From NCBI RefSeq assembly GCF_027359355.1, contig NZ_CP114777.1, forward strand, positions 1,736,001 to 1,800,000: a stretch of 64,000 nt of DNA, in the 5' to 3' direction. The DNA is from Prochlorococcus marinus str. MIT 1214 (lineage in GTDB: Bacteria; Cyanobacteriota; Cyanobacteriia; PCC-6307; Cyanobiaceae). Made by a program: the position numbers and the translations under genes. Of the stretch, positions 15,449-28,570 are shown piece by piece. Numbering within the stretch: position 1 is the stretch's first letter; each line of letters starts with the position of its first letter. The notes beneath the pieces were generated by a model. That model worked only from the letters and a program-made list of their open reading frames with translations, did not search any database and was not told the DNA's origin.

Positions 15449-16195
15449 ATGGCTAATAAGTTAATCATTAGTAAGTATTTTAAGTATCTAATAATATTTT
15501 TCTTTGCTGTTTTTTTGAGTACGACTCTTTTTTTCTTTGACTATGATATATCTGATTTTTTTTATTCTGTTGTTAGTAAATTAAATTCTAATAACTTTTT
15601 TAGCTTAATAGTGATCTTTCTATTATTTATATTGAGATCTATCAGTATAATTATACCAGTGTTACCAGGAACAGTATTTTCAGCTGCTGCTGGTTTTCAG
15701 TTTGGCTTTGTGCAGGGATTAGTTATTATATTTTTTGCGGATTTTATATCTTGTTCAATATCATTTTTATTGGCTAGAAAATTAGGAAGAAATTATATTA
15801 GTAAATTACTTGGTTCAAGACAAATGAGAAGAGTTGAAAGCATTAGTCAAGATTATCTAGAAAAGAATTATTTCCTTATGACAGCTCTATTAATGTCAGG
15901 CTTTTTTGATTTTGTTTGTTATGCAATAGGACTAACAAAAATAACATTGAAAAGGTTTTTACCAGCTTTGATTTTTAGCATTATAATCTCAGATTCACCT
16001 TTTGTCGCTAGTGGTTTTGCTGCAAGGAAAATAAAGGATATTGGATTGAATAATTTCTTGCAAAAAGTATTAAATGGCGAATTAGATATGATTTCTGGAA
16101 ATTATCTTTTCCTATTTTTAGCATCTTTTTTTATAATTTTCACCTTGGCAATGATAAATATATATTTAAATAAAAGATCTAAGATGATTAAGTAA
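15449..16195 (+). CDS. TVP38/TMEM64 (DedA-like, VTT domain) membrane protein
   Basis: The 248-aa protein has about six hydrophobic segments. The central segment IIPVLPGTVFSAAAGFQFG matches the signature of the SNARE-associated/VTT domain. The region after it, with an RKLGRNYIS motif, fits the re-entrant-loop topology of this family. Members of the wider superfamily act as lipid scramblases or are linked to membrane homeostasis; the substrate here is unknown. It is downstream of a small membrane protein on the same strand and ends just before a terminator that faces the other way. Confidence 0.8.
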   Translation: MANKLIISKYFKYLIIFFFAVFLSTTLFFFDYDISDFFYSVVSKLNSNNFFSLIVIFLLFILRSISIIIPVLPGTVFSAAAGFQFGFVQGLVIIFFADFISCSISFLLARKLGRNYISKLLGSRQMRRVESISQDYLEKNYFLMTALLMSGFFDFVCYAIGLTKITLKRFLPALIFSIIISDSPFVASGFAARKIKDIGLNNFLQKVLNGELDMISGNYLFLFLASFFIIFTLAMINIYLNKRSKMIK

Positions 16196-16203
16196 TTTTT
16201 TAT

Positions 16204-16236
16204 TCGACAAAAAAAAAGCCCTTGAAACCAAGGGCT
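16204..16236 (-). terminator. Rho-independent terminator of the DUF4278 gene
   Basis: Read on the minus strand, AGCCCTTG, loop GTTT and CAAGGGCT form a perfect 8-bp stem followed by a long T run (16208-16217). It lies 20 bp after the stop of the minus-strand small gene at 16257. The plus-strand gene also ends nearby, but the poly-T tract points to the minus transcript. Confidence 0.85.
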
Positions 16237-16256
16237 ATAAAATATAAAAATGTTTG

Positions 16257-16358
16257 CTAGCTTTGGTAAGACTTACCTCGATAAGTAAGTAGCACGTGTT
16301 GCTTTGCTACAACTGCTTTTTGCTGATTGTACTTAAGACCTCTGTAGGTTAAAGACAT
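16257..16358 (-). CDS. DUF4278-type small protein
   Basis: The predicted 33-aa product starts MSLTYRGLKYNQQ and ends LLTYRGKSYQS, so it has two copies of the LTYRG-x-x-Y motif that defines DUF4278 proteins of cyanobacteria. Their function is unknown. The frame is open further upstream, to 16463, but a GGAGA site lies seven bases before the ATG at 16356-16358, which decides the start. It has its own terminator. A 68-aa longer form cannot be excluded. Confidence 0.7.
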   Translation of the reverse strand: MSLTYRGLKYNQQKAVVAKQHVLLTYRGKSYQS

Positions 16359-16463
16359 TTCTTTCTCCGGAATATGCTCAAGTCCCCGTTCCTTGGCTTG
16401 AGGCAAACTGCGGCTCATCACTTGATGAGTTGAACGTTTTTTGTAGTTTTTGCTACAAAACAA

Positions 16464-16620
16464 ATATAAACAAAATATCTTTTCCTTGGTGTTCAGCTTG
16501 TTACATCTAAATTATTGTCTTTTCTCTACCTGTGCTTTTTAAATTCATTTGATCTGTGACAGTTGAAAAACTTTACTGCTTGGCAACGTTATTTGTTTTG
16601 AGCCCATTAGGTTGTAATTG
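16464..16620. other. Non-coding stretch upstream of Yfr2-like RNA
   Basis: No gene is visible. The segment should contain the divergent promoters for the DUF4278 gene (minus) and for the small RNA that begins near 16621 (plus). I could not identify promoter boxes with confidence. Confidence 0.4.
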
Positions 16621-16710
16621 TGAGGAGTTGGGATCCTCCAGCAGTGGAAACAAGGAAACACTTGCCTGCAGATCCTAAAAAAAGCCACCTTTTAATAGGT
16701 GGCTTTTTTG
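16621..16710 (+). ncRNA. yfr2: Yfr2-family small RNA
   Basis: Two copies of GGAAACA, the hallmark loop motif of the cyanobacterial Yfr2 family, lie at 16646-16652 and 16654-16660. They sit in the loop of an imperfect stem (CAGCAGTG at 16639-16646 against CACTTGCCTG at 16659-16668). A short 5' hairpin (GAGGA/TCCTC) precedes it and a strong terminator follows. The total of about 90 nt fits the family. The 5' end is estimated. Yfr2 RNAs are abundant and are thought to act as regulators; their targets here cannot be read from sequence. Confidence 0.72.
16677..16709 (+). terminator. Terminator of the Yfr2-like RNA
   Basis: A perfect GCCACCT/AGGTGGC stem with loop TTTAAT is flanked by seven A and six T bases, extending the helix to 13 bp. 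It ends the small RNA on the plus strand and would also work on the minus strand. Confidence 0.9.
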
Positions 16711-17371
16711 TGTTTATTATTTAATAGCTCTTAAGTTTTAAGTACCTTCGTCGATTTTTTATTTGATTGTGATTGTCTTATCTCTGATTGCTGTTAAGAG
16801 GATATTTTTCTGATTTCTACTTCAGAATTGTAGTAAAAGGAGAGCAATCGACCTACCCATCTGTTTTTTTGAATACTTCTAAAAGTAATTTTAATGGGCT
16901 TTTCTAGTCTCAGATTTGATTAGAACAGAAAACACAACTTCTCCTCAATAAAATAAATTCTTTCAGCAAAGGAATGAGCCTCAAGGTCGGCTGAAGCAGT
17001 AGGTGGTTTTCTTAATCCAAGAAATAAAAGACTCCATTACTTTTTCCACTCGCCTCGCAATTTTATGGGAGATGAAAAGTTAATGAAACCTCTCTTTCCC
17101 TTTTCTCAAGCTAATAGCGCTCACAGACTCTAAAAGGTATAGTGCCTCATAATGAGTAATGGATGTTCATCTATCTGATTTCTACATCAATTTCTTCTTT
17201 ATTTCTTATTTGTAAACTTCTTTTTTTTTATATACTCTCTCATCCTGATTCCTTCCTTATCGTCAGGATATTTTTTCGTTTAGTTTGTTTTTCAAAAAAT
17301 AAATATAAATCTTTTATGGGCTAAAGAAGAAATCAATTATCCTGTATAATATCAATATTGAATACAAAATT
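16711..17371. other. Non-coding stretch with a second terminator
   Basis: This 660-bp stretch has no convincing gene. A terminator-like hairpin at 17242-17276 (ATCCTGA/TCAGGAT then TTTTTT, plus strand) has no coding gene before it, which suggests an unannotated short transcript ending there. The 95 bp after it hold the promoter and start region of the glycosyltransferase gene. Confidence 0.5.
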
Positions 17372-19912
17372 TTGTATTATAAATTAGATCTAGCAAAAAC
17401 ACTCTTTCAGAAAAATAAATATCAGGAAACAATCGATGCTTGTAATGATATACTAGACATTGAAATTAACTCCATAGAAGCTTTAAAACTAATCGTAAAA
17501 TCTTTATTTGCATTGGGAAAAATAGAAGATGCTCGTATACATTTACATAAATTACTAAATATTAATCCTGATGATTATGAAGTAATTCAAGATCTAGCCA
17601 ATACCTATTTTGCTGCTGGTGATAATATAACAGCTAAAGATTATTATCGAAAAGCAATCTCAATCAAGAGTGATTATGCTCCTGCATTAACGTATCTTGG
17701 AGGTATTGAACTTAATATTGGTAACAAACAAGTCGCATTATCTTTGCTTATTAAAGCGACTGAATCTGACCCTAAATTAGCTTCTGCTTGGCTGAATTTA
17801 GCAAGTGCTTATTTTCAATTAGATAATGTGAAAGCAGCAGCGGTAGCTTGTCGTAAATCAATAGAACTTAACCCTAATCTATTTAACTCTCATTTTCTTC
17901 TTGCAAACATTCTGATTAACCAAAATAAGCTTCGCGAAGCAATTGAACCTCTTCGTAAAACTATTGAATTAAAACCAAACTTCTTTCAAGCCAATTCTGC
18001 ACTTGGAGCTTTACTCGGCAAATTTGGTAAATTAAAAGAGGCTGAAACATTAACAAGAAAAGCTATTGAAATCAATCCAGATTCTGCAATTGCACACTCT
18101 AATCTAGCTAACATATTAAAAGATATTGGTAAATTACAAGAAGCGGAAGTATTCGCCCTTAGAGCTACCAAGATACAACCTGATCTTGCCGAAGCTCATT
18201 CTAATCTAGCTAACATATTAAGAATGCTTAGTAAATTAAAAGAAGCAGAAATATCAATCCATAAAGCTATTGAAATTAATCCGAATATTGCTGAATCTTA
18301 TTATAATTTAGCGGGGGTTTTAAAAGATCTTGGCAAGATAAAGGAAGCAGAGTCCTCAATCAGAAAGGCTATTGATCTAGAGCCTAAATCTGCTATTTAT
18401 CATTATAATTTAGGTCTGATTCGAATTGGTTTAGGGGAAGAGGTAACCTATGAATTCGAAAAAGCTTCTAAATTAGATCCTAAAAATCTATCATTTAGAA
18501 TAAAAAGCAAGCTATATATATCAGAGATACCTTTTAGTCAGGAGCAAACAGATTTCGAAAGGAATCAATTTAAGGAACAACTAGCTATAATTGAAAAAGA
18601 TAAAAGCTTAGAATTCAAAGGTGATTTATTTTCTACATGTGCATTTTATTTAGCTTATCATAATGCATCTGATGACTTGGAAATTTTAAAACTATTAGGT
18701 AATGTTTTAAGAAATTCAAAAGGATTAATTAATACTAAATTTAATCAAGAAAAAGGAATAATAGAATCTCAAAGAAGAAACTCTATTAGGCTTGGTATTT
18801 GCTCTGAGTATTTAAAGAACCATTCAGTTTGTATGTTTTTTGGAAACATTATCAAGCAAATAGCATCTTCAGATGTAGAGGTCATAATATTTCGAACTCC
18901 TTATTACAAAGTAGATTCACTTAGTCAATCGATTGATTCACTTGCATCAGAGGTAATAATGATGCCAGAATCTATACAAGAGGCATCCGATTTAATATTA
19001 AATCAATCAATTGATATACTTTTTTATCCTGATATTGGGATGTCTAATTATACATATCTTCTGTCATTATCAAGACTAGCTTTGGTACAATTTACCACCC
19101 TTGGGCATCCAATGACGTCTGGATTACCTGAAATTGACTATTTTATTTCTTGTGATAATTATGAAACTAAATATTCTAATGAATTTTATTCTGAAAGATT
19201 AATTAAACTAAATAGAATACCTGTGAATTATTCTAAACCGATAAATAAAGGAAATACATTCAATAAATCTAAGTTAAATATATCTGAAAAATCATTCTTA
19301 ATTGGAATACCTCATGCTCCTTTCAAATTTCATCCAGATTATGATAAAATCCTTGATAAAATTCTAGAAAACATTCCAAATTCTTTTCTTTTCTTTGCAG
19401 ATGGTCCTAAAAAATTACAGACAGATAAGTTAAAGGAAAGATGGGCAAAAACTACAAAATTAGTTTTGAATCGAACAATATTTTACCCACGAGTCTCATT
19501 TGGCGATTTTTTAGAAATAGTAAAAATGTTAGATATAATAATTGATCCATTTTATTTTGGAATGGGTAACACCTTTTATCAGGCAATGGCTTTTAATACT
19601 CCTGTAGTAACAATGCCAACAAATCATATGAAATCTAGACATGCATTTGCAGGATACAAGCAAATGGATATCAAAGGTGCACCTATCGCTAATTCACCAG
19701 ATGAATATATATCAATATGCAAGAAGCTAGCTTTTGATAAATCATATAGAGAAAATATCGAAACCCAAATAAATGAAAAGGCAAATAAATATCTTTTCAA
19801 TGATGAAACTATTTTTGAAGAATATATTCAGTTCCTAAAGGATTCACTTTCTGCTGCTCAAAATAATACTTTATTGCCAGAGAACTGGAAGCCAAAATCT
19901 AATTTTAGTTGA
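17372..19912 (+). CDS. TPR protein with GT41 (O-GlcNAc transferase-like) domain
   Basis: The protein is about 846 aa. Residues 1-380 are roughly eleven TPR units with the A-L-x-Y/A-N-P pattern (for example AIEINPDSAIAHSNLANIL). The C-terminal 370 residues resemble the catalytic region of SPINDLY/OGT-type glycosyltransferases, with IDILFYPDIGMSNYTYLL, TLGHPMTSGLPEIDYFIS and FYPRVSFGDFLEIVKMLD. Such proteins attach sugars to proteins using UDP-sugars; donor and targets are unknown. There is no ATG in the N-terminal part: a TTG at 17372 is the best start, and the N-terminus may extend or be truncated. It lies next to integrase debris, so transfer is likely. Confidence 0.75.
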   Translation: MYYKLDLAKTLFQKNKYQETIDACNDILDIEINSIEALKLIVKSLFALGKIEDARIHLHKLLNINPDDYEVIQDLANTYFAAGDNITAKDYYRKAISIKSDYAPALTYLGGIELNIGNKQVALSLLIKATESDPKLASAWLNLASAYFQLDNVKAAAVACRKSIELNPNLFNSHFLLANILINQNKLREAIEPLRKTIELKPNFFQANSALGALLGKFGKLKEAETLTRKAIEINPDSAIAHSNLANILKDIGKLQEAEVFALRATKIQPDLAEAHSNLANILRMLSKLKEAEISIHKAIEINPNIAESYYNLAGVLKDLGKIKEAESSIRKAIDLEPKSAIYHYNLGLIRIGLGEEVTYEFEKASKLDPKNLSFRIKSKLYISEIPFSQEQTDFERNQFKEQLAIIEKDKSLEFKGDLFSTCAFYLAYHNASDDLEILKLLGNVLRNSKGLINTKFNQEKGIIESQRRNSIRLGICSEYLKNHSVCMFFGNIIKQIASSDVEVIIFRTPYYKVDSLSQSIDSLASEVIMMPESIQEASDLILNQSIDILFYPDIGMSNYTYLLSLSRLALVQFTTLGHPMTSGLPEIDYFISCDNYETKYSNEFYSERLIKLNRIPVNYSKPINKGNTFNKSKLNISEKSFLIGIPHAPFKFHPDYDKILDKILENIPNSFLFFADGPKKLQTDKLKERWAKTTKLVLNRTIFYPRVSFGDFLEIVKMLDIIIDPFYFGMGNTFYQAMAFNTPVVTMPTNHMKSRHAFAGYKQMDIKGAPIANSPDEYISICKKLAFDKSYRENIETQINEKANKYLFNDETIFEEYIQFLKDSLSAAQNNTLLPENWKPKSNFS

Positions 19913-20015
19913 TCATTATTTGATCGCTTATTGAATTCGGTTTCTTTTACTTCTCTGAATGCTTGAGGTGGATTAGATCTGATTTGTAAGGAGTCTAAAG
20001 GGAAATATGAAGAGT

Positions 20016-20126
20016 ATTTCCCAGCTTTTTAACAGCTGCATGCAAGCGCAAAGTTTTCCATTTTTGACCTTAATGTCGCTTCAATTGGACAAGTGCTTGC
20101 CACCTGCTTCCTTTTCTGTGAATGGC
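20016..20126 (-). pseudogene. Decayed N-terminus of a tyrosine recombinase
   Basis: Read on the minus strand, this segment aligns codon for codon without gaps with residues 3 to about 41 of the intact integrase at 27284-28264. WQALVQLKRH-stop-GQKWKT here corresponds to WQALIRKKKYQGQTSKT there, and HAAVKKLGN corresponds to KAAAKLWAN. The ATG is lost and an in-frame TAA is at 20070-20072. The remnant sits in the same position relative to the tRNA-Thr/tRNA-Tyr copy as the intact gene does to the right copy. Confidence 0.8.
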
Positions 20127-20138
20127 CTAAAAACAACA

Positions 20139-20168
20139 AAAGTGGACCCAAAAATGGACGTCCACTTT
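20139..20168 (-). terminator. Hairpin after the left tRNA pair
   Basis: AAAGTGGAC and GTCCACTTT form a perfect 9-bp inverted repeat. On the minus strand the second arm leads into a T-rich tract (TTTTGTTGTTTTT), so it probably ends the tRNA-Tyr/tRNA-Thr transcript. It is conserved in the right copy, where the loop has changed but both arms are intact. Confidence 0.6.
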
Positions 20169-20224
20169 CAAAGATTTGCGATCTTAGTGCCTCAGATCAC
20201 TTGCCCTGGTTAAGCTTCCGACGA

Positions 20225-20296
<72 letters not shown>

Positions 20297-20307: not shown

Positions 20308-20389
20308 TGGGCCGGGTTGGATTTGAACCAACGTAGGCGTAGCCAGCGGATTTACAGTCCGCCCCCATTAACCACTCGGGCACCGACCC
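20308..20389 (-). tRNA. trnY: tRNA-Tyr(GUA), left copy
   Basis: An 82-nt class II tRNA with a long variable arm. The acceptor GGGTCGG pairs with CCGGCCC, the anticodon loop is CTGTAAA (anticodon GTA), and the T arm contains GGTTCAAATCC. It lies 11 bp upstream of tRNA-Thr in the direction of transcription and is identical to the copy at 28489-28570. Confidence 0.96.
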
Positions 20390-20568
20390 GATTTCTTTCC
20401 ACGCAGCGTGGCATCTTTGCTTGACGCCAATCGAATATATCTCTGATGAGACGACTTGCCAAATCTTTTTTAGGGAGTGCTGTGATCTGTGTTTAGTCCA
20501 CTTTTTAGGGGGTGTGATCCATTAAAAAATAAGTTACATTTGATACAAATAGATTGAAGTACATCATT

Positions 20569-20733
20569 TTGGCCGTCAAACAAAAGGCTTCAAAAAAGGA
20601 TTATTCGAAAGTTACGATTAACCTGCCCAACAACTTGATTGACTTTGTAGATGAACTCAAAATTGAATGGGGATTGAAGAGTCGAGAAAGTGTTTTTACA
20701 CGACTCCTTGAAACGATTTCAGAAAACGACTAA
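20569..20733 (+). CDS. Small ribbon-helix-helix DNA-binding protein
   Basis: The 54-aa product contains YSKVTINLPNNLIDFVDELK followed by LKSRESVFTRLLETISE. That is the strand-helix-helix pattern of MetJ/Arc (CopG-like) regulators: alternating residues in the KVTINL strand for DNA contact, then an N-cap in the second helix. A TTG at 20569 (or 20554, adding five residues) is the likely start; no ATG is in frame. It is the first gene inside the island after the left tRNA pair. A role in repressing or timing the element is inference. Confidence 0.65.
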   Translation: MAVKQKASKKDYSKVTINLPNNLIDFVDELKIEWGLKSRESVFTRLLETISEND

Positions 20734-23204: not shown

Positions 23205-23298
23205 TTGGAAAATGCTGCGTCTCTTGGGCTTCTAAATATGCCGTCTCTGGAATAGCACTGCAAGTAGGTCATTATGCGGCATGGATTTTCAAGCCTGT

Positions 23299-23422
23299 TT
23301 ATACGTCTGAGCTAAAACTCTTCACCCCTTATACCCCAGATGATAGTGGCTGTAGCTCATCAACATTCTTAGATCTTTGTGGCCACTTGCTTCTGAGATC
23401 TGTAGTGCATTCATCCCTGCTG
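23299..23422 (-). pseudogene. Decayed C-terminus of a second integrase
   Basis: On the minus strand this encodes AGMNALQISEASGHKDLRM then LMSYSHYHLGYKG and a stop (23322-23324). The intact integrase ends LMRYSHYQLGYGG. The similarity continues about 23 bp past the stop, so 23299-23422 is a DNA repeat of 27261-27384. The rest of the gene is missing; an unrelated plus-strand gene begins close to the break. It is a fossil of a separate integration or of a recombination event. Confidence 0.85.
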
Positions 23423-23473
23423 GAGATAATTAAAACTATAGTAGTTTGTATTGCAAAGTTAATAGGAGTTTTT

Positions 23474-28264: not shown

Positions 28265-28318
28265 TTTTTGGGTTGCATCAGGTCAGATGCATCAAGCAAA
28301 AATGGTCTAAAAACAACA

Positions 28319-28348
28319 AAAGTGGACCCGAAATCGGACGTCCACTTT
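28319..28348 (-). terminator. Hairpin after the right tRNA pair
   Basis: The same AAAGTGGAC/GTCCACTTT 9-bp stem as in the left copy, with a different loop and a T-rich 3' flank on the minus strand. It is the probable tRNA transcript terminator. Confidence 0.6.
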
Positions 28349-28404
28349 CAAAGATTTGCGATCCTAGTGCCTCAGATCGCTTGCCCTGGTTCAGCTTCCG
28401 ACGA

Positions 28405-28476
<72 letters not shown>

Positions 28477-28488
28477 TTGTGGAAAAGA

Positions 28489-28570
28489 TGGGCCGGGTTG
28501 GATTTGAACCAACGTAGGCGTAGCCAGCGGATTTACAGTCCGCCCCCATTAACCACTCGGGCACCGACCC
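28489..28570 (-). tRNA. trnY: tRNA-Tyr(GUA), right copy
   Basis: Identical to the left copy, with the class II long variable arm and anticodon GTA. The spacer to tRNA-Thr is one base longer than in the left copy. It faces aroQ divergently. Confidence 0.96.

Follow-up and report, generated by a model that had tools for sequence, protein, structure and literature searches.

In Prochlorococcus marinus str. MIT 1214, a short and broken reading frame resembling the start of an integrase gene lies beside a tRNA-Tyr/tRNA-Thr pair, and an intact integrase gene lies beside a second copy of this pair. Such an arrangement raises the question of whether the broken frame (hereafter the fossil) is a remnant of an older mobile element that used the same tRNA site, or whether it arose in some other way from the element present today. 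The window considered here is the whole stretch of 64,000 nucleotides that was analysed (contig NZ_CP114777.1, positions 1,736,001 to 1,800,000, forward strand). All coordinates refer to this window unless another locus is named, and the features are collected in Table 1.

Table 1. Position of the features discussed, in window coordinates
Feature	Position	Strand	Remarks
Conserved left chromosomal border (DedA/VTT gene and downstream region)	15449..16719		
TPR-GT41 gene	17372..19912	+	adjoins the fossil
Fossil integrase N-terminus	19946..20126	-	residues ~4-62; start codon gone, two in-frame stops, small indels near its end
tRNA-proximal end left by the older element	20127..20224	-	hairpin GTGATC..GATCGC, then AAAGTGGAC..GTCCACTTT stem and T-rich run
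Inverted pair AAAGTGGAC/GTCCACTTT, left copy	20139..20168		putative arm-type integrase sites and/or terminator stem
tRNA-Thr(GGT), left copy	20225..20296	-	recombination probably within the last ~15 nt (20225-20239)
tRNA-Tyr(GTA), left copy	20308..20389	-	arrived with the present element
Distal end of the present element	20393..20520	-	directly upstream of the carried tRNA pair; kept in ten other genomes
59-aa ribbon-helix-helix-like ORF	20554..20733	+	distal element end
Second integrase fossil, C-terminus and 3' flank	23298..23426	-	residues 293-326, 85-91% identity; inside the present element
Live tyrosine integrase, 326 aa	27284..28264	-	
tRNA-proximal end of the present element	28265..28404	-	inverted AAAGTGGAC pair at 28319-28348
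tRNA-Thr(GGT), right copy	28405..28476	-	5' part native, 3' end probably from the element
tRNA-Tyr(GTA), right copy	28489..28570	-	native, adjoins aroQ

The decayed integrase start

On the minus strand, positions 20123-19974 align without gaps with residues 4-53 of the live integrase, with 48% identity at the protein level. The E-value of this match is 1.6e-6 in the 64-kb window and 2.5e-6 in a search of the whole genome, in which the fossil ranks third behind the live gene and a C-terminal fragment. At the DNA level, the similarity extends to 19946, i.e. to about residue 62 (66% identity, E 3.4e-6). An earlier note made from the sequence had described a gap-free match to the first 40 residues, with one in-frame stop and a lost ATG. 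The absence of gaps is confirmed for residues 4-53, but the match is longer, covering about 60 codons, and the stops are two in number, one TAG and one TAA. The ATG is indeed gone together with the first three codons, owing to a deletion of ~48 bp relative to the live copy just upstream of the fossil. The best-frame local protein score between the fossil and the live integrase is 108, as against a mean of 32 (sd 4.4) and a maximum of 52 in 1000 dinucleotide-preserving shuffles; the DNA score is 59, with a shuffle maximum of 35. A score no better than that of shuffled sequence, which the same note had named as the outcome that would speak against it, was thus not obtained.

The differences between the fossil and intact integrases are level over the three codon positions (19/58, 16/57 and 22/56); in close pairs of intact integrases they are 3, 1 and 15, mostly at position 3. 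The even distribution therefore indicates that the frame decayed without selection. The fossil combines homology above chance with the loss of both the open frame and the codon-position bias, and it is a real, dead gene start. Its place relative to the tRNA pair, to which attention had already been drawn, is the one where every related integrase starts: in the relatives within the genus that retain the start of the gene, it always follows the Tyr-Thr pair directly, its ATG being about 140 nt further on.

The live integrase contains the phage integrase domain (Pfam PF00589, 3.1e-26; PHROG integrase, 3.4e-54) and the catalytic residues R..HxxR..H..Y, found as GMRRSE, HDLRH, GH and RYSHY in alignment with the HP1 integrase; by domain and catalytic residues it is a tyrosine recombinase. 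The HP1-type phage tyrosine integrases (PDB 1aih) share the aligned R, HxxR, H and Y but are only distantly similar. A phage origin was considered and rejected: relatives were found on no viral contig, and among the matches listed even the best phage records show <30% identity.

Element ends and the two tRNA pairs

The gene order at this locus in the genus is the ORF11499 homologue, a LysM gene, an aldehyde dehydrogenase, the ORF15046 homologue, a DedA gene and a variable stretch, followed by tRNA-Thr, tRNA-Tyr, aroQ and miaE. Chromosomal similarity stops at about 16719, and the DNA is variable from ~16720. A glutamine-II riboswitch (16377-16439, minus strand) and a Cyano-1 RNA (16614-16680, plus strand) are situated at this conserved left border of the island; Rfam matched only these two and the tRNAs, with no match in the end segment described below.

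The present element comprises 8.18 kb between the tRNA repeats and contains cargo ORFs and the integrase, which adjoins the 3' end of a tRNA, while a tRNA repeat stands at the distal end, as is characteristic of integrative elements at tRNA sites. The fossil lies outside it, on DNA that was already chromosomal at its insertion. The two tRNA pairs are 100% identical save for one spacer base, and their origin can be told from the flanks. The sequence upstream of the right tRNA-Tyr is the aroQ-side flank of other genomes; the flank upstream of the left tRNA-Tyr resembles the distal element ends of ten other genomes (80-97%). The aroQ-side pair is therefore native, and the left pair was brought by the present element. 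How much of the tRNAs is repeated at the distal end differs between elements: a piece of 15, 21 or 49 nt, the whole of tRNA-Thr, or both tRNAs. The crossover is likely to occur within the last ~15 nt of tRNA-Thr, because the shortest of these repeats has 15 nt. In one genome (G026), the distal tRNA-Thr borne by the element (L041:9448-9519) has the anticodon CGT instead of GGT.

The distal end also holds the 59-aa ORF, which is 91-100% identical in six relatives, with a dominance of third-position changes that points to purifying selection. Judging from its sequence, its product is a candidate directionality factor.

Between the left tRNA-Thr and the fossil lies an end segment of 98 bp, which is identical to the element end of genome G013 at 95 of 98 positions (97%). 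Of the 41 genus genomes, 13 contain the inverted AAAGTGGA..GTCCACTTT pair, at 15 sites in all; two of these sites (left and right) are those of MIT 1214. All 15 are 57-85 nt past tRNA-Thr, the pair being found nowhere else in the 41 genomes, and a control with the reversed pattern gave 0 matches in the same set. In the window, AAAGTGGAC has 5 occurrences (expected, 0.62), every one at an element end; the fifth copy (20496-20504) is inside the distal end of the present element. In genomes without the integrase, tRNA-Thr is followed by a different sequence, most frequently TCGTCGGAGGGACATCAAAGAG together with a repeat that resembles a terminator. As the inverted pair is found only past tRNA-Thr and unoccupied-looking sites differ, the left 98 bp adjoining the fossil is element DNA, a conclusion that is independent of the coding similarity. 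The AAAGTGGAC motif is a putative arm-type binding site of the integrase, and its inverted pair past tRNA-Thr can be used as a marker for occupied and formerly occupied sites.

The integrase family is present in 13 of the 41 genus genomes, most of which are incomplete single-cell assemblies. Short N-terminal integrase scars by the same tRNA are found in seven genomes (G018, G021, G024, G014, G001, G029 and G027), and longer but broken copies in five (G006, G008, G013, G017 and G026). Integrase scars are thus common at this tRNA site in related strains, about ten of which have similar ones. In G027 there are two full tRNA pairs, each followed by the end segment and an integrase scar. In the Synechococcaceae MAG AG-439-B13 (L028), an element with an intact integrase precedes a distal tRNA-Thr, which is followed by the end segment and by the broken start of an integrase gene; this is an independent case of the same stacked arrangement.

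History of the site and competing explanations

With high probability, the fossil is a scar left at the 3' end of tRNA-Thr(GGT) by an older member of the same element family, beside which the present element was inserted later. The older element would have been located downstream of tRNA-Thr, with an end segment bearing the inverted AAAGTGGAC pair between the tRNA and its tyrosine integrase gene, which began about 140 bp from the tRNA. Its integrase would then have lost the start codon and most of the gene, and so become inactive. Later, the 8.2-kb element, carrying its own full Tyr-Thr pair at the distal end, would have undergone recombination in the final ~15 nt of tRNA-Thr and entered between the tRNA and the fossil. 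This would have placed the new integrase end by the native aroQ pair and the carried pair before the old scar, so that each tRNA pair now has an integrase end downstream. The proposal of the earlier note that an older element with a related integrase had used the same tRNA site, to the left of the present one, agrees with the position of the fossil, the 98-bp end and the stacking in other genomes. Two elements are found in series with an attachment repeat between them (old end with fossil, tRNA pair, present element). At the outer end of the older element, no second tRNA-Thr fragment was found within 16720-19912, and the outer attachment repeat has likely been deleted.

One contrast within the scar needs an explanation of its own. 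The frame of the fossil is only ~69% identical to that of G013, against ~97% for the adjoining 98 bp, so that either a constraint on the end segment or an intermediate replacement is needed. The replacement could have come from an intermediate element of the same family that inserted after the oldest one had decayed; homologous recombination between the end segments would have removed it again and in this way refreshed the 98 bp. The C-terminal fossil at 23298-23426 would come from another member, fused into the present composite element. The sharpness of the contrast fits this history, as does the existence of a second, separate fragment with the integrase C-terminus and the adjoining 3' flank. 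This fragment, 2.9 kb away from the distal element end, has 90% DNA identity to the C-terminal part of the integrase gene and its 3' flank over 23298-23422 and suggests that the present element is composite, possibly a fusion of two. However, no further trace of an intermediate element was seen on the left side, and the end segment may itself be kept by selection as a trailer or terminator of the tRNA transcript. It folds into two hairpins with a T-rich run after the second; the hairpins are conserved, and three pairs of the first are changed on both sides across relatives. A succession of three elements is, on this evidence, rather unlikely.

From its predicted fold, the end segment may be proposed to act as trailer or terminator; the other possibility is the refreshment described above. 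It is possible, and we suggest it only tentatively, that the element end has a dual role and also provides the tRNA-Tyr/Thr transcript with a substitute 3' trailer and terminator, being selected long after the death of the integrase. A replacement terminator could be of use because each integration separates the tRNA transcript from its native terminator. The locus would thereby suggest a reason for the tRNA-proximal end outliving the integrase. If the dual role is real, then, together with the carriage of complete tRNA pairs, it would mean that the tRNA operon itself moves in relay from element to element. A hairpin GCGATC..GATCGC is seen past tRNA-Thr at both 20127-20224 and 28307-28404 and belongs to no Rfam family.

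Another conceivable origin of the fossil is a tandem duplication of the present integrase end by unequal homologous recombination across the tRNA repeats, with later decay of one copy. The near-identity of the two tRNA pairs is in line with this, and the left and right 98-bp segments are ~94-96% identical. Five private sites, at which the live copy differs from four agreeing relatives, argue otherwise: the fossil region shares 0/5 of them and is closer to the G013 element than to the live copy. The fossil is therefore not a copy of the live integrase. Moreover, the left pair is preceded by the distal-end sequence of the element and not by the aroQ-side flank. With these two results, a tandem duplicate is rejected as very improbable. 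That the resemblance is due to chance or to a common N-terminal motif, as the shortness of the fragment and its stops might suggest, is practically excluded by the shuffle scores (108 against at most 52) and by the place, strand and adjoining element end, which all fit an integrase start.

The adjoining GT41 gene and comparison with known systems

A gap of 34 bp separates the end of the TPR-GT41 gene from the last integrase codon that can still be recognised, and the earlier note had supposed that this gene might be what is left of the cargo of the older element. This supposition did not gain support. Over its 3' half (18662-19920, about 1.26 kb), the gene shares ~99.7% identity with another gene of this genome, located at ~824 kb (L047, up to 10672) in a polysaccharide island 0.9 Mb away. 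The near-identity ends at 19920 and the 5' parts of the two loci differ, which points to recent gene conversion or duplication. The TPR head has relatives in >20 genomes at many positions, and TPR genes recur within this island. In the strain comparison that had been recommended, an intact integrase leading into a close GT41 relative was found in no genome searched. The gene may be former cargo of the older element or an independent arrival, the link being unproven.

Tycheposons are cargo elements of 4-200 kb bordered by tRNAs, of which seven have been described, and equipped with a tyrosine recombinase (Hackl et al. 2023, as described in PMC10872708, PMC11389934 and PMC10654061). By the second-hand definition given in PMC10872708, the 8.18-kb element with its cargo, tRNA border and tyrosine recombinase would fall within this class, which occurs in the same cyanobacterial group, and the locus represents tandem accretion of a tycheposon-like kind at a tRNA gene. 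It differs from tycheposons, so far as that description goes, in that the MIT 1214 element carries the whole Tyr-Thr pair and has older integrase scars stacked beside it.

Tandem genomic islands integrated serially at one RNA gene are known from the ssrA locus of Dehalococcoides (PMC3146451). There too, the islands are split by 3'-end repeats, some have no integration module, and fixed remnants have been suggested. Unlike the MIT 1214 locus, with its tyrosine integrase and repeats that comprise anything between 15 nt and both tRNA genes in full, the ssrA islands have Ccr-like (serine) recombinases and short repeats of 20 bp. In Haloquadratum GI3 (PMC3119063), an integrase likewise stands by a complete tRNA gene, whose 3' end is repeated at the opposite border. 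That distal copy is truncated, whereas here it can consist of an entire tRNA pair preceded by a conserved element end. The scar is thus a well-documented instance of serial islands at RNA genes, a kind already known.

In this streamlined ocean bacterium, one locus together with many parallel strains shows the whole life of an element at a tRNA site; the stages seen are the unoccupied site, the live element, the broken integrase, the short scar and a new element on top. A second shared sequence, CTCAGACCCTCTACCAAGAG, is found past tRNA-Thr in G002, G003 and G009 (L050, L053 and L065), and the sites bearing it perhaps belong to a second element family at the same tRNA-Thr site.
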